From: a virus
Direction: 5' to 3' (one strand)
Virus record (IMG/VR): IMGVR_UViG_3300035523_000151
Coordinates: 1 to 62,152 of that record
DNA length: 62,152 nt
Shown here: piece after piece, positions 1 to 38,303 of the stretch
Layout of the letters: every line of letters begins with the position of its first letter
Numbering within the stretch: the first letter of the stretch is position 1
The notes under the pieces: model-generated
Databases searched by the model: none
The model's input: only the letters and a program-made list of their open reading frames with translations
What the model was told of the DNA's origin: nothing
Program-made: the position numbers and the translations under genes

Positions 1-1743
1 CTACTGGGCGTTGCGGGCTCCTCTCCCTGTGGCCGGGGCAAGGAGCCCCTTTTCGCGCAGCCGGTTGGCCATCCGTTTCAGCCCCATGTACGTTCGGCCC
101 AGCCGCCGGGCGATCTCCTGTTTGTCGGCCCAGGTGTAGGTCCGCTGGATGAACCGGATCTGTTTGTCGGTGAACATCGTGCCCTGGTAGTCGAGCTGGT
201 GGTACTCGGCACCGAAATACCAGCGCTCACCCAGCAGGCGGCCGGGCAACCGGACTCGATCCCCGAGCATGTCGAGGTGGACCGCCTGCCAGGTCACCGC
301 GATCCGCACTTCAAGTGCGGCGAGGACTGCCCGTTTTTCGCCGGTAGTGGTCGCCGTCTGAATGCTGCGCACGATTGTCCGGATATCACCGGCAGTCAGT
401 CGCTGGGGTACGGAGCGTTCCAGACCTGCCAGCCCCGTCTGAATCTCCGCTAGCTGCTCCGCATAGTCCCGGTTCTGCAGCCGGAACTGCTCTCGGGTGA
501 TCTCCCCGTCGTGCAGCAGCGTAAACAGTTGCCGGGTCAGGCTCTCGAGTTTTTGCCGGCGCTGCTCCAGTTCAGCCCGCTGGTGGGCGCCGTCGTTCCG
601 GGTCGGACGTTGTTCGACTGCCCTGATCAGGTCGTCCTGGCCATTGTGGCTCAAGGCGACGAGCACAGTCCAGACGGCCTCCTCCAGTTCGCCGGCGTGC
701 AGGGCCGGCATCGTGCAGCCATCCCGCAAAGTCTTCGGGTCTGCACACCAGTAATACCGGTCACTGCCGCGCCGCCCGTCGATCCAGCGCGTGGAGTGCT
801 GCGTCCACATCGGCCGGTTGCAGCAAGTGCATAGCACGTGGCCCCGGAGGAGGTGAGCGTCAACCCGGTCCAAGGCGGCGGACTTCCGGCCCTGGATGAC
901 CGTCTGTACCTGCGTCCACAGTTCGACCGGCACGATTGGCGCCCACTGACCGTCGTATACTTCTCCGTCGAAAGTGATCTGCCCGACGTAGGCCGAGTTG
1001 GTCAAGATCTTCCGGATGGTCGTTAAGGTCCATTCCTTGGCTGGATTGGCGCTGGGAATGCGCCGCTCCGTCAGGTAATCATGCACGGCCGCTATCGACC
1101 TGGTTGCTGCATAGGTCTCGTACATGGCCAGGAGGTGGCGGTGCGTCTCCGGGTCGGGCTCTAGCATGCCCTTGGCGTAGATCGTCCCGTATGGTGGCTT
1201 GCCTGGCGGGCGTTTGCCGCTTTTCGCCTTCGTGAGCCAGGTCTCCCAGATCTGCTCCGACAGCTCCTCGCTCTGATACTGGGCGAAGCTCGCCATGATG
1301 TTGCGGATTAGCCGGCCGGCCGGGGTGGATGTGTCGACCTGCTCCGTGACCGAGACAATGCCGCCGCCGCCGGCGGTCTCGACCAGGTCACAGATCTCCA
1401 GGAATTCACGTGCCCGGCGGGATAGCCGGTTGAACTTGAATACCACGACCTTGTTAATCTCGCCGCGCTTGACGGCATCCAACAGTCGCATCAGGCCCTT
1501 GCGCTTGGAGTAGTGCTGTCGGTAACCGCTTTCGTCCAGGTCGCTCTCCGTTATGACGACGTCCCAGCCCTGGGAGGCGCAATAGGACCGGGCGCGGTCC
1601 TCCTGCGTCTCCGGGCTGACAATCTCATCAGCCATGGCCCGGCCGCCGCTTGTGTGCTTTCGCTTATCCAGGCTGACCCGGACGTAGAGCCCCGCCCGGC
1701 CGTCCTGCTCCTCGGTTTGCCGGCGTTGCTGCCGCTTACCCAT
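1..1743 (-). CDS. Large serine recombinase (phage integrase)
   Basis: This 580-aa protein catalyses site-specific integration and excision of the phage. The N-terminal resolvase domain has the nucleophile motif YVRVS (Ser24), then FKFNRLSRR near residues 103-110 and the helix E region around 150-175. A recombinase domain follows (about 180-290), then a zinc ribbon with Cys305, Cys308, Cys333 and Cys343, and a charged coiled coil (about 375-440). The last ~50 residues read like an extra helix-turn-helix (KQEIARRLGRTYMGLKRMANR), not a standard part of the family. The start is the ATG at 1743 behind GGGGGAG. The stop lies at the window edge, so attP is expected just outside. Confidence 0.96.
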   Translation of the reverse strand: MGKRQQRRQTEEQDGRAGLYVRVSLDKRKHTSGGRAMADEIVSPETQEDRARSYCASQGWDVVITESDLDESGYRQHYSKRKGLMRLLDAVKRGEINKVVVFKFNRLSRRAREFLEICDLVETAGGGGIVSVTEQVDTSTPAGRLIRNIMASFAQYQSEELSEQIWETWLTKAKSGKRPPGKPPYGTIYAKGMLEPDPETHRHLLAMYETYAATRSIAAVHDYLTERRIPSANPAKEWTLTTIRKILTNSAYVGQITFDGEVYDGQWAPIVPVELWTQVQTVIQGRKSAALDRVDAHLLRGHVLCTCCNRPMWTQHSTRWIDGRRGSDRYYWCADPKTLRDGCTMPALHAGELEEAVWTVLVALSHNGQDDLIRAVEQRPTRNDGAHQRAELEQRRQKLESLTRQLFTLLHDGEITREQFRLQNRDYAEQLAEIQTGLAGLERSVPQRLTAGDIRTIVRSIQTATTTGEKRAVLAALEVRIAVTWQAVHLDMLGDRVRLPGRLLGERWYFGAEYHQLDYQGTMFTDKQIRFIQRTYTWADKQEIARRLGRTYMGLKRMANRLREKGLLAPATGRGARNAQ

Positions 1744-1818: not shown

Positions 1819-1845
1819 AAACCCCGCCGGGTGAGGGCGGGGTTT
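1819..1845 (-). terminator. Rho-independent terminator between XRE gene and integrase
   Basis: A perfect 10-bp stem (AAACCCCGCC / GGCGGGGTTT) with a 7-base loop lies directly behind the XRE stop codon. On the minus strand it is followed by TTTCGCTTTT. It should separate XRE transcription from integrase, and could also work rightward. Confidence 0.75.
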
Positions 1846-2072
1846 TATTCTCGATCTGGCACGTCCAGCAGCTCCGTAATCGCCACGCCGAGCACCCGGG
1901 CGTAGCTCACCAGTTCAGCGACTGACACATCCCGAATGCCGTTTTCAATCTCCGCCTGGCGCGGCTGGGTCAGCGTGCCATGCCCTCGCACTTGCATGCG
2001 GGCGACCAGTTGCTCCTGCGTCAGGTCCAGGAGCTTGCGGTAATCACGGATACGGGTTCCCAGGTTGGACAT
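1845..2072 (-). CDS. Small XRE/Cro-type transcriptional regulator
   Basis: This 75-aa protein is a single XRE helix-turn-helix domain: GTRIRDYRKLLDLTQEQLVARMQ, then a recognition helix near LTQPRQAEIENG and a closing helix. There is no oligomerisation domain, as in Cro-like proteins. The ATG at 2072 is chosen because GGGAGG lies 8-9 bases upstream; the longer reading from 2114 has no ribosome site. A promoter with a perfect palindrome in it (2129-2158) lies upstream, so autoregulation is likely. It sits beside the integrase and may control it or act as a Cro counterpart of the repressor at 3426-4094; that role is inferred. Confidence 0.85.
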   Translation of the reverse strand: MSNLGTRIRDYRKLLDLTQEQLVARMQVRGHGTLTQPRQAEIENGIRDVSVAELVSYARVLGVAITELLDVPDRE

Positions 2073-2128: not shown

Positions 2129-2158
2129 GATATACGATTATCGTATATTAGCTGTCAA
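2129..2158 (-). promoter_or_regulatory. XRE gene promoter with perfect 19-bp palindromic operator
   Basis: On the minus strand a consensus -35 TTGACA (2158-2153) is followed after 18 bases by TATATC (2134-2129). The bases 2130-2148 read ATATACGATTATCGTATAT, a perfect 9+1+9 palindrome filling the spacer and -10. This is the expected place for an operator of the XRE protein encoded just downstream. Confidence 0.65.
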
Positions 2159-2320: not shown

Positions 2321-2349
2321 TTGACGGTCTATCGACAGTCCGATATGCT
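2321..2349 (+). promoter_or_regulatory. Promoter of the TPR-peptide cassette with CI-type operator
   Basis: A near-consensus sigma-A promoter: TTGACG (2321-2326), 17-base spacer, TATGCT (2344-2349). The spacer and the first bases of the -10 are occupied by TATCGACAGTCCGATA (2330-2345). The same 16-bp element occurs in the repressor and lytic promoters near 4.15 and 4.24 kb. The position relative to -35 and -10 is identical to that in the lytic promoter, so repression by the CI-like protein is a strong inference. Confidence 0.75.
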
Positions 2350-2391
2350 AACGGTGAACGATATCCGGTTATCAATAGGGGAGTAGCGCAC

Positions 2392-3249
2392 ATGTCCAGT
2401 CTAGCGGAATTGTTGTGCTCTCAGGACTATCAGCAGCGAGTCGACACATGCCTGGAGGTCTTGGACGGTCGCCGTTCGGATCTCTCGCTTCGCGATTTGT
2501 CTGCGGAGGAATCTGCGCACATCCGTTATTTTCTGGCACATGCCTACCGGCAGTTGAATCGGCCGGCAGAGGCGTTGATGGTTTGCAATGAGGCTCTCCC
2601 CGACACCGTGTCTGTTCGGTGGCGCTCCATGATGCTGGAGTGTCGCGCCATGAGTCTGTATGATCTGGGGCGCCTGGACGAGATCCCCGGAGTGGTTGCC
2701 GAAGCCGAGCGGCTGGATTTGCCGGTGACGGTGAAAGGGCACCTGCTGGGGCTCCAAGGGTGCCTGTTGAGCCGCCAATTAGATCCAGCCGCCTTTTCCA
2801 CTTTTCAGGCAGCGGAAGATTTGTTCACGGATGCCAATCACGCCTATGGCGCCTCATGGGTGCAACGATCGGCGGCGGCCCTGGCCATCAAATTGAGCGG
2901 CCTGGACCGGGCTGATGAACTATTGTGCCGGGTGACGTTCCCGATGGTACTGCCAGAGGTCAGGCTGTTGCAAGCTCAGGTTCTGTATCTGCGTGGCCTC
3001 AAGTCAGAAAGCGCCGACCTGGTCAATCAGGTTATTTCCGGTTGCTGGGGCGAGCCAGCCGTCATTGATCGTGCCCGAGCGCACTACTTGCAGGCTGTGC
3101 GATTGGCCGATAATGGTCTGCTGGTTCAGGCCAGCGAGCAGGTCTATCAGGCGTTTGAGGAGCTCCGACTGCAACAGCGTTATGAGATTGACCTGACCGA
3201 CGCGTTAAATGCGCTGCGGTTCAAAATACGAAACTGGGGGGTTGCTTGA
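2392..3249 (+). CDS. TPR-repeat peptide-receptor-like protein (Rap-like), cassette 1
   Basis: This 285-aa protein is almost wholly helical with degenerate TPR units (for example SAHIRYFLAHAYRQLNRPAEAL and RARAHYLQAVRLADNGLLVQA). No helix-turn-helix, membrane segment or catalytic motif is visible. The ATG at 2392 is preferred over an upstream in-frame start at 2269 because the promoter at 2321-2349 lies inside the longer reading and GGGGAG precedes 2392. The stop TGA is followed at once by the ATG of a secreted peptide gene (TGAATG), so the two are translationally coupled. TPR receptor plus exported pre-peptide is the hallmark of RRNPP-type quorum sensing. The lack of a DNA-binding domain fits the Rap subgroup, which acts on a partner protein. 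Function is inferred from architecture and context. Confidence 0.75.
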   Translation: MSSLAELLCSQDYQQRVDTCLEVLDGRRSDLSLRDLSAEESAHIRYFLAHAYRQLNRPAEALMVCNEALPDTVSVRWRSMMLECRAMSLYDLGRLDEIPGVVAEAERLDLPVTVKGHLLGLQGCLLSRQLDPAAFSTFQAAEDLFTDANHAYGASWVQRSAAALAIKLSGLDRADELLCRVTFPMVLPEVRLLQAQVLYLRGLKSESADLVNQVISGCWGEPAVIDRARAHYLQAVRLADNGLLVQASEQVYQAFEELRLQQRYEIDLTDALNALRFKIRNWGVA

Positions 3250-3399
3250 ATGCGTTCGAAATGGTTTGTGATGGGAATCGCGGTATTGCTGGTGGCCTTG
3301 GCAATGTTCCTGCTTCCGGGCGTCACAGGTGCATGTACCGGTTCTAGCGGCGGCTCCGATCCCTGCCCGGACAGCGTTGTAATCTGGCCGCTCAAATAA
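3250..3399 (+). CDS. Secreted signalling pre-peptide candidate, cassette 1
   Basis: A 49-codon gene starting on the base after the TPR stop codon. The product has a basic start (MRSKW), a long hydrophobic core (about residues 6-24) and a helix-breaking Pro-Gly before a probable cleavage near VTGA (residues 25-28). The exported tail is about 21 residues, has two cysteines (29 and 39) and ends in DSVVIWPLK. The site is not a good lipobox because position -3 is Thr. By analogy with Phr and AimP, the C-terminal residues would be the active signal after further proteolysis. A bidirectional terminator follows at 3416-3443. No sequence match to a named pheromone is claimed. Confidence 0.7.
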   Translation: MRSKWFVMGIAVLLVALAMFLLPGVTGACTGSSGGSDPCPDSVVIWPLK

Positions 3400-3415
3400 G
3401 CAGTAGAGCGTATAG

Positions 3416-3443
3416 AAACCCCCGGTCAATCGACCGGGGGTTT
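3416..3443. terminator. Bidirectional terminator between cassette 1 and the repressor
   Basis: A perfect 12-bp stem (AAACCCCCGGTC / GACCGGGGGTTT) with a 4-base loop lies between two convergent genes. It overlaps the last codon and stop of the repressor gene. A/T tracts on both flanks allow termination in both directions. Confidence 0.85.
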
Positions 3444-4094
3444 GCTATTGCTATTTCGTACGCCTAGCAGGACATCCATTTGCCGTTCCAAGAGTTCTGG
3501 CAGCAGTCGATTGTCAATTGCTCTGACGATGACCGCCAGGTAAGCGCCGGCCTCTGAATGTTCCAGTAGGCGTCTGAGATTTTCATCCGTGGGGCCTGGG
3601 TCGCCACGCAGCAGAAACTGCACTGGCACCTGGGCTCTTTCGTTCAGTTGGGTTAGTAGCCAAGGAGAGACATCGCTGCCGCTCAGTAGGGCGGTGATGT
3701 GTTCCTCGGTCGTTTGCAGTCGGGCGGCGATTGCCGACGCCGAGAACGCGGTAACCAACTGCTGCAAACACCAAACCGCCCGAGGGCGAGCCTCGAACTC
3801 CTGCAACTCCAGGATCTCGCCGGGCTTCAGTGTGCCAAAACGAGCACGCCAGAACCAATTCAAAGAGTCCGCCGGGCCAGCATCAGCGGGTGAATCATCG
3901 GCCGTCAAGGTGGCGAGGTCAACGCTTAATGCCCGGGCGATCTTGCTGAGAAGATCCAAACCGGGCTTGCTGACTCCGCCTTCGATTTCGCTTAGTCGCC
4001 CCTGCGAAATGCCTGCTGCTTTTGCCAAGGCGTTTTGGGATTTGAACCCCTTAACGACCCGCAAGGTGGCGATGCGTTGACCGATATTGCTCAT
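3426..4094 (-). CDS. CI-like phage repressor (XRE family)
   Basis: This 222-aa protein has an N-terminal XRE domain (IGQRIATLRVVKGFKSQNALAKAAGISQGRLSEIEGG, residues about 3-40) and a ~150-residue C-terminal helical domain without the Ser-Lys autocleavage motifs of LexA-like CI. RecA-driven self-cleavage is therefore not apparent, which leaves room for another inactivation route such as a peptide-controlled partner. The ATG at 4094 is chosen (MSNIGQRI, directly before the HTH). It is transcribed divergently from the lytic operon. Its promoter and the lytic promoter each carry the 16-bp operator, as does the TPR-peptide promoter. Confidence 0.88.
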   Translation of the reverse strand: MSNIGQRIATLRVVKGFKSQNALAKAAGISQGRLSEIEGGVSKPGLDLLSKIARALSVDLATLTADDSPADAGPADSLNWFWRARFGTLKPGEILELQEFEARPRAVWCLQQLVTAFSASAIAARLQTTEEHITALLSGSDVSPWLLTQLNERAQVPVQFLLRGDPGPTDENLRRLLEHSEAGAYLAVIVRAIDNRLLPELLERQMDVLLGVRNSNSKPPVD

Positions 4095-4123: not shown

Positions 4124-4159
4124 AGTGTAGCACATTCCAGACTTATCGACAATCAGATA
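4124..4159 (-). promoter_or_regulatory. Repressor promoter with operator over the -35
   Basis: On the minus strand TTGTCG (4152-4147), 17-base spacer, TACACT (4129-4124). The operator TATCGACAATCAGATA (4144-4159) covers the -35, so the repressor should limit its own synthesis. Confidence 0.65.
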
Positions 4160-4222
4160 GCCGCAGGAATCATTTGAGCTTGATCAATAACCACCAGGAA
4201 TCAAAAATCGGATAATAAACAG

Positions 4223-4251
4223 TTGAATTCCTATCCGAATGTCGATAAAAT
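4223..4251 (+). promoter_or_regulatory. Rightward lytic/early promoter with CI-type operator
   Basis: TTGAAT (4223-4228), 17-base spacer, TAAAAT (4246-4251). The operator at 4232-4247, TATCCGAATGTCGATA, is TATCGACATTCGGATA on the other strand, matching the consensus TATCGACA-N-TC-N-GATA. It starts 9 bases after the start of the -35 and overlaps the -10 by two bases, exactly as at 2321-2349. A degenerate copy (AATC-N8-GATA, 4199-4214) lies upstream. Confidence 0.75.
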
Positions 4252-5133: not shown

Positions 5134-5472
5134 ATGAACACCACCGCGAACCCCGCTCCGGTGAAACCGGCGTTCGGCCCGGCTCAGGCTCACGTTCTGG
5201 CCGCTGCGCTGGAGACGTTTGGCAAGATGCTGGATAGCGAAGTGATCCGAGCCGAGCTGTTCTATTACGGCAATTCTCGGGTGCACATGGGCAACGCCGG
5301 ATTCCGGCGGTTGTTCACCACGTACTGGCTGGAAGATCGCGGCCGTGGGTCGTATCCCTTCCAGGCATGTGCGCAGATTGGCCGCACCGTGTTCTACGCC
5401 CTGATCGAAGCCGACCAGGTACCTGAATGGCGGGCAGCAGCTTCGCCTGCACCCCAGGAGGCCACGGCATGA
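5134..5472 (+). CDS. Hypothetical early protein
   Basis: A 112-aa protein with a central aromatic region (ELFYYGNSRVHMGNAGFRRLF). Unknown function. The start could also be the GTG at 5125. Its stop overlaps the ATG of the SbcD-like gene (ATGA), showing translational coupling. Confidence 0.65.
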   Translation: MNTTANPAPVKPAFGPAQAHVLAAALETFGKMLDSEVIRAELFYYGNSRVHMGNAGFRRLFTTYWLEDRGRGSYPFQACAQIGRTVFYALIEADQVPEWRAAASPAPQEATA

Positions 5473-6515
5473 ACCTGATCTACATCACCGATACCCAGTG
5501 GCGGGGCACGTCGCCCCGCTCCCGACTGGACAACCTCCCGGCGACCCAGATCCTGAAGCTCCGCGAAACGCTGCGACTGGCCCGGGCGCACCGGGCCGCC
5601 GCCATCCTGCACGGCGGGGACCTGTTCGACCGGCCCGATACCGCCCCGGCCGTGGTGCTGGAGTACATGCAGGTTATCCGGGAAGAGGCGCCCTGCCCGA
5701 TCCTGGCCATCGCCGGGAACCATGACATCTTCGGCTACAACCCCAGTACGCTGCCGCAGACCATGCTGGGCTTGATGAACGGCGCCGGCCTGGTGCATGT
5801 GATTCAGCCCGGACACCCTCGGCTCCTGGAGCAAAACGGCCTGACCGTCCAGGTGACCGGCCAGCCGTTTCACGCCGAACTGGACCGCCGGGACCCGATG
5901 CTCGACTACATCGTCCACCCCGCCGACGACCCGTGCGACGCCCTGCACCGCCGGCAGTCCGGCACTGACTTCGCCATCCACCTGACCCACGGCATGCTCC
6001 TCGAAAAGCCCTTCCTGGATGGTGTCGCCCATACGCTGCTCTCCGATGTCTACAGCCCGGCCGTGACCCTGGCCGATGTGACATTCGGCGCTCACTATCA
6101 TCCGGGTTGGAGTCGGATTTACACCGACCGGCACGGCATGACCTGGTGCAACCCCGGCGCCCTCTCCCGGATGACCAACGACGTGAGCGACATGACCCGG
6201 CCGATTCAGGCCGTGCTGGTGACGCTCGAAAAGGGTCATACGCCCCGGCTGGAGTTCATCCCGCTGGAGTCTGCCCGGCCCGCCGACGAAGTCATCGACC
6301 GGACGATCCCGGCCGCCGAACTGGCCCGTGAGCAGGCCCAGCAGGATGTGCTGAACGGTCTCGGCGACACCAGCCGCCTGCAGGTGGTGGCCGTGGAGGC
6401 GATGCTGAACGAGATCGCCGGCAGCACCGGCGTCGCCCCGGAGGTTCGGGAAGAAGCGCTGAAACGCCTGGCCATCGCTCAGGCAGAGGCAGCGCGACGG
6501 GAGGCGGCAGCATGA
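5469..6515 (+). CDS. SbcD/Mre11-like metallophosphoesterase nuclease subunit
   Basis: This 348-aa protein is the nuclease half of an SbcCD (Mre11-Rad50, T4 gp47/46) complex, which processes DNA ends for recombination and replication. The calcineurin-type motifs are in order: ITDTQW near residue 8 (Asp8, with Gln in place of the usual His), GGDLFD, GNHDIF, a histidine in LTHGML, and GAHYHPGW. A second feature is CNPGALSRM. The ATG at 5469 is used because upstream in-frame codons lie inside the preceding gene. It overlaps the SbcC-like gene by four bases. The Asp-x-Gln variation of motif I is unusual and could alter metal binding. Confidence 0.9.
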   Translation: MNLIYITDTQWRGTSPRSRLDNLPATQILKLRETLRLARAHRAAAILHGGDLFDRPDTAPAVVLEYMQVIREEAPCPILAIAGNHDIFGYNPSTLPQTMLGLMNGAGLVHVIQPGHPRLLEQNGLTVQVTGQPFHAELDRRDPMLDYIVHPADDPCDALHRRQSGTDFAIHLTHGMLLEKPFLDGVAHTLLSDVYSPAVTLADVTFGAHYHPGWSRIYTDRHGMTWCNPGALSRMTNDVSDMTRPIQAVLVTLEKGHTPRLEFIPLESARPADEVIDRTIPAAELAREQAQQDVLNGLGDTSRLQVVAVEAMLNEIAGSTGVAPEVREEALKRLAIAQAEAARREAAA

Positions 6516-7993
6516 AGCACATCGCCAAGTTGCGCCTGGAGAACTTCCAGAGCCACGTTGATTCGACGCTGGAGTTCAGCCCCGGCCTGAACATCCTGAC
6601 CGGCGAGAGCAACCACGGCAAATCGGCCGTGCTCCGGGCCCTGTACTGGCTCCTGTACAACCGGCCACAGGGCGTCGACCATGTCCGCTATGGCTGCCGG
6701 GAGTGCCGCGTGACGGTGACCATGAGCGACGGCGCTGAGATCGTCCGGGAACTGCGGCTGGCACCGAACGGCGCCGCCGCCCGGAACCGCTACACAGTCA
6801 CTCAGCCCGGCGGTGAACCGCAGGTATTCGAGGGGTTCGGCCAGCAGGGGATTCCGCAGCAGGTGACCCAGGCGCACGGCATGCCTATCGTGGCGCTGGA
6901 TGACGATCGGAAGCTGTCGCTCTCGTTCGGGTCGCAGCTCGAAGGCCCGTTTCTGCTCACCGAAACGGGCAGCATGCGAGCGGCGGCAATTGGCCGGTTG
7001 CTCGGGGCTCATGTGGTGGACGCCGCAATCCGAGACCTGCAGCAGGATCTGCAGCGAAACGGCGAGGCTGTCGCCACGCTGGAGGCCGACCTGACTGGCT
7101 ACGACGCCAAACTGGAGCCTTTCGCTGATCTGCCGCAGCAGGCGGCCCAACTGGAGGCGGCGGCGCAGATCATCGCAGCGATCCCGGCCCTGCAGCAGCG
7201 GGTCGACCAACTGCAGGGATTCCGGACCCGGCGAGATCAGATCGCCGCTGACGGAGCAGCGATCGCCGCCACCCTGACCGCACTGGCCGGCATCGATATG
7301 GCCGCCCTGCACCTGGCGCAAGCCAGGACGGCGCACGGTCGGGTGACGCTGCTCGGCACCTTCCGGGACCGCCGCCAGGTCATTCAGACCACGGCTGACC
7401 GCATCGCCGCCGTTCTGGCAGAGACGGCCGGCGTCGAAGCGGCGCAGGCGCACTTGACCGCCGCCCGAGTTGCCGAAGAACGGCGCAAGCAACTCGCCCC
7501 GTTGGTGTTCGAGACCGAACGCCTGCGACTGGCCAGGCTCAATATTGCGGACGCCCTGACTCAGACCGCCGGTGTGCCGGAGGCCGCCCAGGCCCTGACG
7601 GCCGCTCAGGCCGCCCACACCCGCATTCAGAACCTGGCCCCTCTCCGGGAGCGCCGGGACCGCATCCAGGCCGAGCGGGTCCGGATTGACCGGGCACTGG
7701 CCGAGACCGCCGGTGCCGAAGCCGCCGCAGTCACCCTCACGGCCGCCCGGCAGGTCCAGGACCGCATGAACCTCCTGGCCGGGCTCCGGGTGCGCCGGGA
7801 AACCCTCGCCGTGCAGCGCCAGCAAACCGAGGCGATCATCACACGGGCCAATGTCGACCTGGACACCCTGACCGCCGAATACGCTCAGACCCTGGTCGAA
7901 GCGAGAATCTGCCCGACCTGCGGGCAGTCAATTTCAGAAGCCGCGGCCGATGTCGCCGCCAATCGCAAAGGAGGACACGCCCATGCCGCTTGA
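6512..7993 (+). CDS. SbcC/Rad50-like ATPase, N-terminal half with zinc hook
   Basis: A 493-aa protein starting with the Rad50-type head (LRLENFQSH, Walker A GESNHGKS at residues 31-38). Several Ala/Gln/Arg-rich coiled-coil segments follow. These carry a loosely repeated ~60-residue unit (AETAGVEAAQAHLTAAR, AETAGAEAAAVTLTAAR). It ends with a zinc-hook CPTCGQS at about 467-473 close to the C-terminus. A normal SbcC continues with a returning coil and a second head containing Walker B; here that part is encoded by separate genes (7983-8240 and 8244-8903). It overlaps both neighbours slightly, so the complex is probably assembled from co-translated chains. Confidence 0.88.
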   Translation: MKHIAKLRLENFQSHVDSTLEFSPGLNILTGESNHGKSAVLRALYWLLYNRPQGVDHVRYGCRECRVTVTMSDGAEIVRELRLAPNGAAARNRYTVTQPGGEPQVFEGFGQQGIPQQVTQAHGMPIVALDDDRKLSLSFGSQLEGPFLLTETGSMRAAAIGRLLGAHVVDAAIRDLQQDLQRNGEAVATLEADLTGYDAKLEPFADLPQQAAQLEAAAQIIAAIPALQQRVDQLQGFRTRRDQIAADGAAIAATLTALAGIDMAALHLAQARTAHGRVTLLGTFRDRRQVIQTTADRIAAVLAETAGVEAAQAHLTAARVAEERRKQLAPLVFETERLRLARLNIADALTQTAGVPEAAQALTAAQAAHTRIQNLAPLRERRDRIQAERVRIDRALAETAGAEAAAVTLTAARQVQDRMNLLAGLRVRRETLAVQRQQTEAIITRANVDLDTLTAEYAQTLVEARICPTCGQSISEAAADVAANRKGGHAHAA

Positions 7994-8240
7994 TGCAGCG
8001 ACCCGGATTGCCGAGTTGGAGAAAGCCATCGGTGCCAAACGCACGCTCCGTGATACGACACTCGGTCAGCAGACCGCGAACCAGACTGCCGCCGACCAAC
8101 TCGCCACAGACCTGACCGCCGCCGGCGTCACCGCCGAGACCCTGGACGAACAGTATCGGCAGGCCCAGGAAGACCGGGACAGTCAGATCATCGCCGGTGA
8201 GGCCGCCCTCAACCCGCCCGCCGTCCCTCAGGAGGCGTAA
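7983..8240 (+). CDS. Small coiled-coil protein between the SbcC-like halves
   Basis: An 85-aa all-helical protein (RIAELEKAIGAKRTLRDTTL and DEQYRQAQEDRDSQI). The ATG at 7983 follows AAAGGAGG. It lies inside the split SbcC operon and could form part of the returning coil. Unknown otherwise. Confidence 0.65.
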   Translation: MPLDAATRIAELEKAIGAKRTLRDTTLGQQTANQTAADQLATDLTAAGVTAETLDEQYRQAQEDRDSQIIAGEAALNPPAVPQEA

Positions 8241-8243
8241 GCG

Positions 8244-8903
8244 ATGCCCGCCACCTACCAGGGTCTCCTGACTGAACTGGGCCGGCAGCAGCGGTCCCTG
8301 GCCGCCCGACAGGGGCAGCGGGATCAGATCGCCGCCGACCGGACCGCCTGCGAAGCTCGTCTGACCGCCACGAAAGCGCAATCGCTGACGTACGACTTGG
8401 CCGCCACGGTGCTCCGCAAAACCGCCGATTACGCCCGGGCGCTCGCCAAAACGCAGTTGGAGAACCTCGTTTCCGCCTATCTGCAGGCCATCTACGGCCC
8501 GAGCTACTGGTTCGTCATCGACATGGTTGAACGAGCCGGCAGGGCCGAAGCAGAGTTCTTCGTCACATCGGGCTTCGGCCCGGACGGCGGCCTCCTCAAG
8601 ACCAGGATCGAAAGCAGCCGTGGCGGCGGCGTGGCGGACATCGTGTCCCTGGCACTCCGGGAAGCGATGTTGGAGACCTACCGCCCACAACTGGAGGGTG
8701 CTCTCGTCCTGGACGAGCCCCTCAAGATGCTGAGTGCGGAGTTCGTGCAGCCCGCTGTGCAGTTGTTAACGGCCATCGGCCAACGGTATGGCCGCCAGCA
8801 AATCATGGTCACGCACGACGGCTACCTCGCCCAGAGCGGAGCCGCCCACTTCCAGGTCACGCAGCCCGATGGCTGTACGAGTCTGGTGACCCGGATTGCC
8901 TGA
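8244..8903 (+). CDS. SbcC/Rad50-like ATPase, C-terminal half
   Basis: A 219-aa protein with a short coiled coil (residues 1-75) and then the C-terminal ABC-type head. It has a signature-like SRGGGVADIVSLALRE (125-140), Walker B ALVLDEPL with Asp157-Glu158, and an H-loop MVTHDG (His191). No Walker A is present; that is in the protein at 6512-7993. The two chains together make one SbcC-type ATPase acting with the nuclease at 5469-6515. The start ATG at 8244 follows CAGGAGG. Confidence 0.85.
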   Translation: MPATYQGLLTELGRQQRSLAARQGQRDQIAADRTACEARLTATKAQSLTYDLAATVLRKTADYARALAKTQLENLVSAYLQAIYGPSYWFVIDMVERAGRAEAEFFVTSGFGPDGGLLKTRIESSRGGGVADIVSLALREAMLETYRPQLEGALVLDEPLKMLSAEFVQPAVQLLTAIGQRYGRQQIMVTHDGYLAQSGAAHFQVTQPDGCTSLVTRIA

Positions 8904-9852: not shown

Positions 9853-9929
9853 CGGGGTGTGGCTCAGTCTGGTAGAGCACTTGCTTTGGGAGCAAGATGT
9901 CGCTGGTTCAAATCCAGCCACCCCGACCA
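9853..9929 (+). tRNA. tRNA-Pro (anticodon TGG)
   Basis: A complete 77-nt cloverleaf with encoded CCA. The acceptor stem is CGGGGTG / CACCCCG, the D-arm has GGCTCAGTCTGGTAGAGC, the anticodon stem is CTTGC / GCAAG with loop TTTGGGA, and the T-arm is GCTGG-TTCAAAT-CCAGC. It lies inside the phage early operon, so it is probably made by processing of the early mRNA. It reads proline CCN codons, which are common in this genome. Confidence 0.96.
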
Positions 9930-32776: not shown

Positions 32777-33649
32777 ATGACGGTGGAGGAAATGTTGGGC
32801 TACCTGGAGACCTGCCAGTACCCACAGGCCTGGGCGCAGTTCGTCCGGCTGCGCACCGCGGGGCCGGTGACGGCGAGTCTGCTGCTGCGGGGCAGTCATG
32901 CGGCATTCGGGCTGCGGGACCTGGCCGAGGCCCGCGAACTGGCGGAGGCGGCACTGGCGAAGTATCCGCACAGCGGTGAGCCGACCCGGCGGCTGGGGCA
33001 GATCCGTTTTCACCTGGCCATGGTGCGCCGGGAACTGGGCGATGCGGCCGGGGCGCTGACGCAATTCGACACGTACCTGACCGAACTGCCCACGCTCTAC
33101 CCGGACCTGGCCGGGACGGAGGGGAAGGCGCACTTCTACCGGGCGCTCTGCCTGCGCCAGCAGGAAGCCCTGGAGGCCGCTGCGGGGGCCTACGAGGAGG
33201 CCCTGCGGCTGATGCCCCCCGCTGATCCGCTGGCCGTCAAGGCCCGCCAGAACGCGGCGTGGGTGCTGTGCCTGCTGAACCGGGGCGAGGCGGCCCAGGA
33301 GCACCTGGCCGCGGCTCGCCCGCTCGCAGGCGACTCCATCGACCGGGCACACCAGACGCTGGGTGAGGCGTTCCTGGCACTCGTCACCGGAGACTCTGCG
33401 CAGGCGGCGGCGCTCTGCGAGCAGCTTTTCCGGACCTCGCACCAGGGGGAAATCACTGACACCGAGGTGCTGTCGCAGGCGGCGTGGCTGGCAGGTCGGG
33501 CCGCCATGGCGCAGCAGCGGTGGGAGGCGGCGGCGGGCCTCGCCGGTGTGGCCGTGACGTTCGCGGCCGATGCGCGGGACGCCCGGCTGATCAACGATGC
33601 TGCGGCGCTGCGGGCGCAGGTGCAGCTGCATCGGAGCGGGGTGCAATAG
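32777..33649 (+). CDS. TPR-repeat peptide-receptor-like protein (Rap-like), cassette 2
   Basis: A 290-aa helical protein with clear TPR-type units (AHFYRALCLRQQEALEAAAGAYEEALRL; QNAAWVLCLLNRGEAAQEHL; ASLLLRGSHAAFGLRDLAEARELAEAAL). No DNA-binding, membrane or catalytic motif is seen. Length and layout match the TPR protein at 2392-3249, although their sequences look only distantly alike. A secreted pre-peptide gene follows after 58 bases and an HTH gene after that. The ATG at 32777 or GTG at 32783 (six bases after GGGGGG) fits the promoter; a GTG at 32690 lies upstream of it. Peptide reception is inferred. Confidence 0.72.
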   Translation: MTVEEMLGYLETCQYPQAWAQFVRLRTAGPVTASLLLRGSHAAFGLRDLAEARELAEAALAKYPHSGEPTRRLGQIRFHLAMVRRELGDAAGALTQFDTYLTELPTLYPDLAGTEGKAHFYRALCLRQQEALEAAAGAYEEALRLMPPADPLAVKARQNAAWVLCLLNRGEAAQEHLAAARPLAGDSIDRAHQTLGEAFLALVTGDSAQAAALCEQLFRTSHQGEITDTEVLSQAAWLAGRAAMAQQRWEAAAGLAGVAVTFAADARDARLINDAAALRAQVQLHRSGVQ

Positions 33650-33707: not shown

Positions 33708-33875
33708 TTGAAGAAGAAGCTTGCGGCTTTGGTCCTGGCCGTGGTTCTGGCGTTGGGCGTGGCTGGTGTGGCGTCGGCCGAACACGGCAACATCGGCGGC
33801 GTTGGTGTTGGTGGCGTCGTGACCACGCTGGAGCAGGGAACCGGCGGGCCGATTGGCGGCGTCGGGACCCGGTAG
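33708..33875 (+). CDS. Secreted signalling pre-peptide candidate, cassette 2
   Basis: A 55-codon gene starting at TTG 33708 behind GGGGGAGGG. The product has a clear signal peptide: MKKK, a hydrophobic core to residue ~20, and a standard cleavage site VASA|EHG at residues 24/25. The exported 31 residues contain the motif IGGVG twice (GNIGGVGVGG and GPIGGVGTR, the second at the C-terminus). Repeated copies of the active signal within one precursor are known for some Phr-type peptides. It lies between a TPR receptor candidate and an HTH protein. No identity to a known pheromone is claimed. Confidence 0.72.
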   Translation: MKKKLAALVLAVVLALGVAGVASAEHGNIGGVGVGGVVTTLEQGTGGPIGGVGTR

Positions 33876-33908
33876 CACCGGGTCTGTGCGGCGAAGGGAG
33901 GGGTGAGG

Positions 33909-34463
33909 GTGGAATACGTTGTCACCGGCGAGGATGCGCTGCGGGGCCTGGTGCGCGCCGCCAGACGCGGCCAAGGCCTGCGACTTCACGACGTTGCAGA
34001 TAGCGCCGGCGTTTGTATCGGTCACCTGGCCAACTTCGAGAGAGGGGATCGCTCGATGTCGCCGCCGCTGCTATTGAGGACGCTCGCGGCGCTGAACCTG
34101 CAGGTGATTGTGCGTTCTCCCTACCCTCCCGACGCCGCCTGCCCGCATCCTCACTTAAATGTTGATACGAGTGAGGCGACGGCGGAATACCGCATTACCG
34201 ACGTGGGCCAACTGCGCGCCCTGATGCGTGCCGCCCGGCACGGTCAGAGACTGCGACTTCGGGATGTCGCACTGCACGCTCATGGCTGCGACACTCACAT
34301 CAATTCTTGGGAGATGAGCGGCGGCGGAATGTCCCTGCCCGTGCTCTTAACGACGTTGCAGTCGCTCGGGTTGCCGCTGGTGGTACGCTCGGGTTATCCG
34401 CCCGCACCCTACATGCCGTTCAGCCAGAAATACCCGCGGCGAACAGGTTCTGCTTCTGCCTGA
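33909..34463 (+). CDS. Tandem-duplicated HTH-like regulator
   Basis: A 184-aa protein made of two similar ~75-residue halves. Half 1 has GEDALRGLVRAARRGQGLRLHDVAD and ends VIVRSPYPP; half 2 has VGQLRALMRAARHGQRLRLRDVAL and ends LVVRSGYPP. Each half resembles an XRE helix-turn-helix (LRLHDVADSAGV...HLANFERGD). The fused form could act as a single-chain dimer on an operator. It is the third gene of cassette 2 (TPR, peptide, HTH), so it is a candidate partner of the TPR protein. GTG 33909 is chosen by spacing from AGGGAGGGG; GTG 33903 is possible. Confidence 0.65.
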   Translation: MEYVVTGEDALRGLVRAARRGQGLRLHDVADSAGVCIGHLANFERGDRSMSPPLLLRTLAALNLQVIVRSPYPPDAACPHPHLNVDTSEATAEYRITDVGQLRALMRAARHGQRLRLRDVALHAHGCDTHINSWEMSGGGMSLPVLLTTLQSLGLPLVVRSGYPPAPYMPFSQKYPRRTGSASA

Positions 34464-34698: not shown

Positions 34699-34992
34699 TT
34701 AGGGGGCCGGGGTCGTCGGTGGCTTCTGCGCGCCATCCTTGACCGTGCTCTTGACCATCATGGCCGCCACCCAGAGACCCAGCCAGGCCACCAGGAGGGC
34801 ATACAGGGGTGGTTTGGGCTGCTGGGCGATGTACCAGAGGACCGCCACCAGCAAGGCCAGGAAACCGGGCGCCAGGAACCGGGAGGCGGGGGTCTTGAGC
34901 AGATGCACCATGGCGGCCCGCTCCACCAGCAGGAAAATCACCAGGGCGATGCCCATGCCGAACGCCTGAAGGCCTTCAAGACCAGTGCTCAC
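34699..34992 (-). CDS. Putative holin (three transmembrane segments)
   Basis: A 97-aa protein with three hydrophobic helices (FGMGIALVIFLLVERAAM, FLAPGFLALLVAVLWYIA, YALLVAWLGLWVAAMMV) and a polar C-terminus. It is the last gene of the late operon, 4 bases after the amidase, the usual holin place. The GTG at 34992 follows AAAGGAG. Confidence 0.7.
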   Translation of the reverse strand: MSTGLEGLQAFGMGIALVIFLLVERAAMVHLLKTPASRFLAPGFLALLVAVLWYIAQQPKPPLYALLVAWLGLWVAAMMVKSTVKDGAQKPPTTPAP

Positions 34993-34996
34993 GGAA

Positions 34997-35674
34997 TCAA
35001 CTCCTTTCGATCGAATCCGCCTTCGGCGGCGCCAGCCGCAACGCCACGGCCGCCAGCTCCCACCAGAGCACCGGCTGCATCGGATGCCGCCGCTGCTGAA
35101 GCAGGCCGGCCTGCAGCATCTGATCCATGAGCACGTCCTGCCAGGGCGCCGGCGTGGGCAACCGCCCGATGCCGAACAGCGCCGTGGCCACGTCGCTCTT
35201 GAACTGGTCCCAGGTCCGGCCATACTGCGCCAAGAACGCAATCGGGTCCTGGTGGTCGGTGTCCTGCGGGTAGAGCCGGCTGATGTCGGCGTGTGAGAAC
35301 AGGCGATCGATGCCCCAGCCGTAGCGGTGCAGGATGTCGGCCGCTAACCAGACGGCCCGATTCCAGACCTGCAGGAACTGCGCCGTGGCGTTCGGCCCGG
35401 CCGCCGGTTCGCACATCTCGAAACTGATGCTGTCGGCGTTGGCGGTGGGGCCGTTGGCGGGGCCTACAAACCCCTCGGGCACCAGCTGGCTGATGGAGTC
35501 CCAATCCAGGTAGTAATGCGCCCAGCCATGTTGCCGGGCGCTGTCCAGCCAGCGGAAATGACCCTCGTCGGTGGCGCCGGGGTTGGCCGTGCTATGCGCC
35601 ACCAGACGCGTGGCCGTTAGAGGGGTGCGCTCCTGCAGATCTTCCTGGAGAAACCGCTGCAACACTTGATACAC
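34997..35674 (-). CDS. Endolysin, N-acetylmuramoyl-L-alanine amidase (Amidase_2 type)
   Basis: A 225-aa protein that cuts the bond between muramic acid and the stem peptide at lysis. Zinc ligands fit the family: His27 in LVAHSTANPGA, the histidine in FSHADISR, and Asp/His in TDHQDP. WAHYYLDWDSISQLVP is the usual second block. The last ~50 residues (WQDVLMDQMLQAGLL) look like a small wall-binding or helical domain. GTG 35674 is chosen because AAGGAGG lies 8 bases upstream; the reading from 35695 has none. Confidence 0.9.
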   Translation of the reverse strand: MYQVLQRFLQEDLQERTPLTATRLVAHSTANPGATDEGHFRWLDSARQHGWAHYYLDWDSISQLVPEGFVGPANGPTANADSISFEMCEPAAGPNATAQFLQVWNRAVWLAADILHRYGWGIDRLFSHADISRLYPQDTDHQDPIAFLAQYGRTWDQFKSDVATALFGIGRLPTPAPWQDVLMDQMLQAGLLQQRRHPMQPVLWWELAAVALRLAPPKADSIERS

Positions 35675-35709
35675 GGTGATTACCTCCTTGGGCACGAAAA
35701 TGGCCCGGC

Positions 35710-37772: not shown

Positions 37773-38303
37773 ATGCGCGGAAAGGTTAAGACTTGGTTGG
37801 GCCTGACGTTAGGTGCGGTTATGCTCGTCATCATAGCGTCTCCGGGGAACGCCGAAGCCCCGGCCATTCAGTTGGTAGTCGACGGCCGGCCGCTCACCAT
37901 GGACGTGCAGCCGCAGGTCATCGACGGTCGGGTGATGATTCCGGCTCGGGCACTGGCCGAGGCGCTGGGGGCGACGGTGGAATGGGACGGGGCAGGGCGG
38001 CGGGTGGTCGTGAAGAGTAAGGAGGCGGCAAAACCGTTAGTGCAATCCGTCGTCTCTGAGACGAGCGAATGGGTTCGCTTAAAAGACGTCGCCGCTCAAT
38101 ATCCATTGGAAGTCTCTATCCCTGACGGCACAAACGGGATTGTGCACATCGCCGGTAACGGACACCTGGTAAAGCTTCCGACCAAGGGCGCCATAGAATT
38201 CAGCGGAACATCGGAAACCGGTGTCGCCGTCCGAGGAAAATTGACTGACGGAATGCTGTTTGTAAATCTACCCGATCTTCGGAGTGCCGGCTTGATTCCC
38301 TGA
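37773..38303 (+). CDS. Secreted protein with copper amine oxidase N-like domain
   Basis: A 176-aa protein with a signal peptide (basic start, hydrophobic residues ~9-23, cleavage near GNAEA). It then has the Cu_amine_oxidN1-type unit (IQLVVDGRPLTMDVQPQVIDGRVMIPARALAEALGATVEWD, about 32-75), a cell-surface stalk module common in Firmicutes and not itself an enzyme. It lies 6 bases after the previous gene and its 3' end overlaps the convergent gene at 38268 by 36 bases. Probably exported by the lysogen. Confidence 0.75.
   Translation: MRGKVKTWLGLTLGAVMLVIIASPGNAEAPAIQLVVDGRPLTMDVQPQVIDGRVMIPARALAEALGATVEWDGAGRRVVVKSKEAAKPLVQSVVSETSEWVRLKDVAAQYPLEVSIPDGTNGIVHIAGNGHLVKLPTKGAIEFSGTSETGVAVRGKLTDGMLFVNLPDLRSAGLIP

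Follow-up and report, generated by a model that had tools for sequence, protein, structure and literature searches.

A candidate TPR receptor and exported-peptide cassette in the immunity region of a high-GC phage

The cassette and its immunity region

The stretch of DNA analysed here (the window) comprises the 62,152 bp of virus record IMGVR_UViG_3300035523_000151, has a G+C content of 63% and is bounded by the genes of a serine integrase and, at the opposite end, the large terminase. Within it, a gene for a TPR protein (P0001), a small ORF (P0002) and a terminator form a cassette that is convergent to the gene of a CI-like repressor, P0003 (Table 1). As an earlier, sequence-only reading had described, the two cassette genes follow one another without a gap: the stop codon of P0001 (TGA, 3247-3249) abuts the ATG of the 49-codon ORF, giving TGAATG, and each start lies 8 nt behind a Shine-Dalgarno sequence (GGGGAG for P0001 and GGGGGG for P0002). 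The terminator that it had placed after the small ORF was recovered as well, in the form of a perfect 12-bp stem with a 4-nt loop, with a folding energy of -31.5 kcal/mol for the 55-nt stretch and without a long T-run, and this stem serves the convergent repressor gene too.

Table 1. Features of the cassette, the immunity region and the second TPR-peptide pair (window coordinates)
Feature	Position	Strand	Basis
Serine (large recombinase) integrase	1..1743	-	domain search
P0004, small XRE protein, upstream of integrase	1845..2072	-	ORF, domain search
Palindrome ATATACGATAATCGTATAT in P0004 promoter	2130..2148		palindrome search
Cassette promoter, TTGACG-17-TATGCT	2321..2349	+	promoter search, sequence
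Operator TATCGGACTGTCGATA in cassette promoter spacer, between -35 and -10	2330..2345	-	perfect TATCNGANTGTCGATA site
Weaker operator-like site 3' of the cassette -10, 3 mismatches	2362..2377	+	mismatch scan
P0001, putative peptide receptor, TPR-only, 285 aa	2392..3249	+	ORF, weak Pfam TPR matches, AlphaFold model, structure comparison
P0002, putative exported pre-peptide, 49 aa	3250..3399	+	leader heuristic; in-frame codon score top of three frames
Candidate signal DSVVIWPLK	3370..3396	+	sequence; recurrence of IWP in chromosomal family peptides
Terminator-like 12-bp perfect stem, common to cassette and repressor gene	3416..3443		hairpin search, folding energy
P0003, CI-like XRE repressor, 222 aa, no S24/LexA-type domain	3426..4094	-	ORF, domain search; homology to Symbiobacteriaceae XRE regulators along its length
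Repressor promoter, TTGTCG-17-TACACT	4124..4152	-	sequence read by eye
Operator TATCTGATTGTCGATA over -35 of repressor promoter	4144..4159	-	perfect TATCNGANTGTCGATA site
Weaker operator-like site, 3 mismatches	4199..4214	-	mismatch scan
Rightward early promoter, TTGAAT-17-TAAAAT	4223..4251	+	promoter search
Operator TATCCGAATGTCGATA in early-promoter spacer	4232..4247	+	perfect TATCNGANTGTCGATA site
P0005, second TPR-only protein, 290 aa, chromosomal family member	32777..33649	+	ORF, homology, domain search, tree
P0006, second putative exported peptide, 55 aa, TTG start	33708..33875	+	leader scan; AEHGNIGGVGV vs chromosomal AEHDNIGGVGV
P0007, XRE-like protein after second pair	33903..34463	+	ORF, domain search

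The 16-bp pattern TATCNGANTGTCGATA has three perfect sites in the 62 kb, and all of them lie in promoters: that of the cassette, the rightward early promoter and that of the repressor gene. No further site with up to 2 mismatches is present in the window, and none of 100 shuffles of the window reached three sites. Read from the DNA, one operator is common to the cassette, the early operon and the repressor gene, and we infer from the position of P0003 that this is the protein binding at all three. Searches of other viral contigs found no paired operators, and in the relatives identified through TerL this protein is essentially the sole common part, and no lysogeny module like the present one was seen in them.

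Compared with the Symbiobacteriaceae XRE family, the C-terminal half of P0003 on its own gives 57 bits, while 1,000 shuffles reach at most 5.6. Pfam gave no match to a C-terminal S24 peptidase domain of the self-cleaving LexA/CI type, so that an antagonist of P0003 is plausible; the AlphaFold model of P0003 alone is poor. Its closest XRE relative (L104, 41% identity, L138:8944-9684) adjoins a CodY-like gene and has no TPR partner, and most members of the related XRE family likewise stand without a TPR neighbour. L104 was considered as a prophage repressor and rejected as a lone chromosomal gene. Since the closest relative is such a gene beside a CodY-like one, the comparison suggests that the phage repressor derives from host regulators.

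The sequence-only reading had set the cassette between the integrase, a Cro-like XRE protein and the repressor. The three neighbours are indeed there, but the Cro identity of the small XRE protein is not supported, because the P0004 gene is collinear with that of the integrase and its promoter bears a separate palindrome, a putative operator distinct from TATCNGANTGTCGATA. On the other side of the repressor gene, the early region starts with genes for a metallophosphoesterase and an AAA ATPase, the two being of SbcD/SbcC type (5427-8903), and a tRNA-Pro (TGG) lies within it (9853-9929).

The peptides, the TPR proteins and their chromosomal family

P0002 is predicted to consist of a Sec-type leader, MRSKWFVMGIAVLLVALAMFLLPGVTGA, a cleavage region of small residues (VTGA/C) and the tail CTGSSGGSDPCPDSVVIWPLK. 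Our leader calls rest on a simple heuristic rather than on SignalP; by this measure the proposed export signal came out strongly positive, 9 leaders as good being counted among 20,000 random ORFs and 5 among the 438 window ORFs of 30-80 aa. The C-terminal DSVVIWPLK, which had been named as the candidate signal, keeps that standing with a qualification: its IWP recurs in three chromosomal peptides of the family described below, but the general permutation test of 3-mers shared by P0002 and the chromosomal peptides was not significant (p = 0.087), and we treat the common IWP as a lead. P0002 has two cysteines, which is unusual for Phr-type peptides, and their Cx9C spacing is also seen in one chromosomal peptide (L094). 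Its codon signal is weak, though its own frame scores highest of the three. A viral match to P0002 was discarded as a coincidental stretch within a larger protein, and P0001 and P0002 are both without close homologues.

The Pfam TPR matches of P0001 are weak (best E about 7.6e-4, below cut-off), and Pfam found neither an HTH nor any other domain in it. An AlphaFold model from the single sequence is all-helical with TPR-like pairs (mean pLDDT 77), the TPR-like part beginning at about residue 38. In the structural comparison that the earlier reading had proposed, the top of the ranking consists of generic TPR proteins, and NprR and Rap, Rap-pLS20 included, are among these matches at a TM of about 0.5. 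Searches for homologues of P0001 covered viral and GTDB contigs, phages and plasmids, as well as several hundred genomes from the phylum and 154 from the Symbiobacterium class, and only weak TPR matches were returned; the lone open-frame match from the phylum searches is a TPR-CHAT protein and was rejected. Against the profile of the chromosomal family P0001 is similar at the TPR level only, with a score no better than that of generic TPR proteins, and in the family tree its branch is very long and uncertain in position. Its assignment is therefore based on gene order, on the convergent and homologous XRE gene, on the peptide and on the operator, and not on sequence homology.

The conservation of the TPR-peptide pairing was consequently tested through a second TPR protein of the same phage, P0005. 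The leader scan of all window ORFs of 30-80 aa had brought up, besides P0002, a second peptide, P0006, directly following P0005. In P0005 the domain search found a TPR match above the TPR_2 cut-off (E 2.5e-7) and no HTH. It has 43-44% identity to members of the chromosomal family and groups with the receptors of IGGVGV peptides (clade support 96/92), and the tail of P0006 (AEHGNIGGVGV...) fits the chromosomal IGGVGV group. The second pair lacks the immunity operator, and its closest relatives are chromosomal pairs (L111 and L113) that adjoin a threonine-aldolase-like gene; this pair (32.8-33.9 kb) is probably a captured chromosomal system acting on the host. Two further observations concern the DNA beyond it: a membrane ORF on the minus strand (34699-35241), directly 3' of an amidase gene (34997-35695), is probably the holin partner, and the gene at 37773-38303, lower in G+C than its surroundings and located by a DUF2441-like ORF, encodes a secreted product bearing a copper amine oxidase N-terminal domain and is possible host-derived cargo.

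A full-length homologue of P0005 (29% identity, E 1e-11) is encoded on a chromosome that we take to be that of Symbiobacterium thermophilum. There the TPR gene is followed by a peptide gene (MRRILISLFIMASMLAMAATALA/EPRSGGPSSF). An XRE gene comes next in convergent orientation, and its product matches P0003 with 25% identity over 218 aa (E 3e-12). Because this XRE protein aligns with P0003 along its length, the order TPR gene, peptide gene, convergent XRE gene is alike in phage and chromosome. No clear site shared by the TPR and XRE promoters was seen in the S. thermophilum locus. TGTCGA elements precede the TPR gene there, and two species have them conserved at this place (in L077, about 120 bp upstream of 12844); this hexamer is half of the phage operator, and we note it as a lead only.

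Searching 154 genomes of the class with the chromosomal TPR protein, and 13 genomes with the family profile, yielded, counted by hand, 25 distinct TPR-only members for which the DNA downstream could be read. A leader-bearing peptide of 33-52 aa is encoded within 200 nt downstream of 13 of them, as against 1 of 98 control long ORFs (Fisher p 5e-10, with a small control set). The absence of a secreted ORF beside homologues of the TPR gene had been named in advance as what would speak against the signalling reading; in the family such an ORF is conserved, but P0001 itself has no recognisable homologue in which to look for one. The peptide tails include NGNGTIWPTEVVR, GENGTIWPT...ENGSIWPF, ITRPIWPGMQDS, GPKWPVVLDSAQPIP, AEHDNIGGVGV... 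and AERGDIGGVGV.... In orthologues that are 70% identical the leader is conserved and the tail changed (EPRSGGPSSF vs EPRTAGPTIW), and in one precursor IWP is repeated; judged from these sequences, both traits are typical of pheromone precursors.

Most members of the family are chromosomal, with ordinary host genes nearby, and the Symbiobacterium class in which they occur is probably the group to which the phage host belongs. Two genomes (G537 and G538) encode many TPR-only receptors with differing secreted peptides (IWP, IGGVGV, KWP and Cx9C tails), in some cases as divergent or convergent double pairs; eight loci of this kind were noted, and together they would be a large signalling repertoire. 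Eight TPR-only members, one subgroup of which is conserved across species, were noted without a nearby peptide gene, and these might be listeners only or have another function.

A proposed switch and the alternatives

Three observations support the reading of the cassette as a signalling module: the shared operator, the second pair in the same phage and the family-wide occurrence of secreted peptides by TPR-only genes. These also uphold the central claim of the sequence-only reading, that a TPR receptor and an exported peptide are tied to the lysogeny switch, with the reservation that no homologue of P0001 itself could be recognised. Our preferred explanation, which we hold to be about evenly balanced between right and wrong, is an RRNPP-like peptide-communication module within the phage immunity circuit, in which the TPR protein is a peptide-inactivated antirepressor of P0003. 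P0003 would bind the shared operator, so that the cassette would be silent in the lysogen and switched on at infection or induction, a pattern of expression unlike that of genes serving the lysogen. P0001 would then bind P0003 and hold it off the DNA, favouring lysis; this antirepressor role is proposed because of the analogy with Rap-pLS20 and Rco. P0002 would leave the cell, be processed to a short C-terminal fragment that includes IWP and be taken up again, and the peptide would enter the TPR groove of P0001 and release P0003. As P0003 would also shut off its own antagonist, a two-state switch would result, which the peptide would tip towards lysogeny when many neighbours are infected. Beyond the shared operator, we infer every step of this model. 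Several points count against it: P0001 is without a recognisable homologue and is structurally closest to generic TPR proteins, the 3-mer test does not bear out IWP, P0002 has two cysteines, and most of the XRE family, the nearest relative of P0003 among them, lacks a TPR neighbour.

The main rival accepts the signalling pair and changes its target: like classical Rap proteins, the receptor would act on a host protein, for instance a response regulator or a host XRE protein, and steer host physiology during infection rather than the phage repressor. The chromosomal setting of most family members, the solitary state of the closest relative of P0003 and the precedent of phage-borne Rap-Phr pairs that act on host regulators (PMC10075063) all favour such a target, yet the first cassette is under a phage operator and the TPR-peptide unit is convergent to a P0003-type XRE gene in phage and chromosome alike, and we regard a host target as rather unlikely. 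A different rival is a repressor-controlled accessory pair without any signalling, in which the small ORF would encode a membrane or secreted product that serves exclusion, lysis or toxicity, with the TPR protein as its partner or chaperone. Short hydrophobic ORFs are common in phages, P0002 has a Cx9C pair and a weak codon signal, and its cleavage is predicted only. However, the family peptides combine cleavable-looking leaders with short, hydrophilic and variable tails, one of them with the repeated IWP, orthologues differ chiefly in the tail, and pheromone precursors fit these features better, which makes an accessory pair improbable. More improbable again, and by our estimate very unlikely, is the reading that a spurious hydrophobic ORF happens to lie behind a generic TPR gene and that the likeness to RRNPP pairs is accidental: the want of close homologues of P0001 and P0002 would agree with it, but the rarity of such leaders among random ORFs and of secreted ORFs downstream of control genes does not, nor do the real homologues of the second pair in the same genome.

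With a little less confidence than the peptide-inactivated antirepressor itself, and thus tentatively, we propose that the cassette exemplifies a new type of lysis-lysogeny communication: an antirepressor that is TPR-only and effector-less, mutual inhibition with the CI-like repressor through a shared operator and inactivation by a pheromone containing IWP, the whole derived from a large and apparently undescribed body of TPR-only receptor-pheromone pairs of the Symbiobacterium class, of which this phage would carry another language besides. Most study of phage communication via imported peptides has gone to Bacillus phages, whose AimR receptors bind DNA. If our proposal is true, phage-to-phage communication arose more than once, here in a phage of high G+C content whose receptors lack both the HTH and the Rap bundle, with operator wiring and with two signals, and the cassette and its repressor are a compact, testable switch of three genes. 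The Symbiobacterium-class pairs would be a new signalling repertoire, none having been described for this lineage in the literature searched, where we found no paper linking Symbiobacterium with RRNPP.

Comparison with known peptide-signalling systems

The arbitrium system AimR-AimP of the SPbeta-group phages resembles the cassette in that a phage receptor and an exported peptide are encoded by the lysogeny genes. AimR, however, binds DNA through an HTH and so activates aimX. P0001 is unlike it, with no HTH and no detected similarity to AimR.

For membership we used the two-gene signature of RRNPP(A) systems as given in PMC10075063: a receptor of 250-500 aa with TPRs (strict TPR HMM E below 1e-5), and an adjacent ORF of 10-100 aa with a gap of -60 to 400 nt, a Shine-Dalgarno sequence and a Sec signal by SignalP. 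P0001 and P0005 are both within the size range; P0001 misses the strict TPR threshold, whereas P0005 would pass it. P0002, with its 49 codons, gap of 0 and GGGGGG, agrees with the description of the adjacent ORF, and both window pairs have a putative secreted peptide directly downstream of the receptor gene. The same survey, made with RRNPP_detector, describes pairs of adjacent receptor and secreted propeptide genes beside c1-type repressors in Firmicutes phages; its highlighted receptors have an HTH and are divergent from c1, unlike the cassette. Symbiobacterium is not mentioned in the main text of the survey, though the S. thermophilum pair may stand in its supplementary tables.

RapI-PhrI and ImmR-ImmA of ICEBs1 offer another likeness, a TPR regulator-peptide pair that lifts the XRE repressor of its element. 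RapI works through the protease ImmA, leading to cleavage of ImmR (PMC9956884), and in contrast we saw no ImmA-like protein among the phage genes examined.

The closest parallel is Rap-pLS20/Phr-pLS20/Rco-pLS20, from a conjugative plasmid of Bacillus subtilis, which likewise joins the XRE repressor of a mobile element, an HTH-less TPR protein and a pre-peptide. Rap-pLS20 has no DNA-binding domain and acts on the XRE repressor Rco by direct binding; Phr*, the C-terminal pentapeptide of a 44-aa pre-peptide, frees Rco (PMC7430634). The antirepressor logic that we propose is identical. There are nevertheless differences: (i) in Rap-pLS20, contact with the repressor is ascribed to an N-terminal domain, whereas P0001 is TPR only; (ii) in the phage, the receptor promoter bears an operator common to the repressor gene. 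The earlier description of the cassette as Rap-like holds for the missing DNA-binding domain, but the N-terminal 3-helix bundle that precedes the TPR domain in Rap is also absent from the 285 aa of P0001, and the family profile aligns to RapF only from residue 115 on, omitting the N-terminal domain of Rap. With the HTH and the 3-helix bundle missing from both P0001 and P0005, the cassette is filed as neither AimR nor Rap; by analogy, its proposed way of working is that of an RRNPP system, and most like that of Rap-pLS20.
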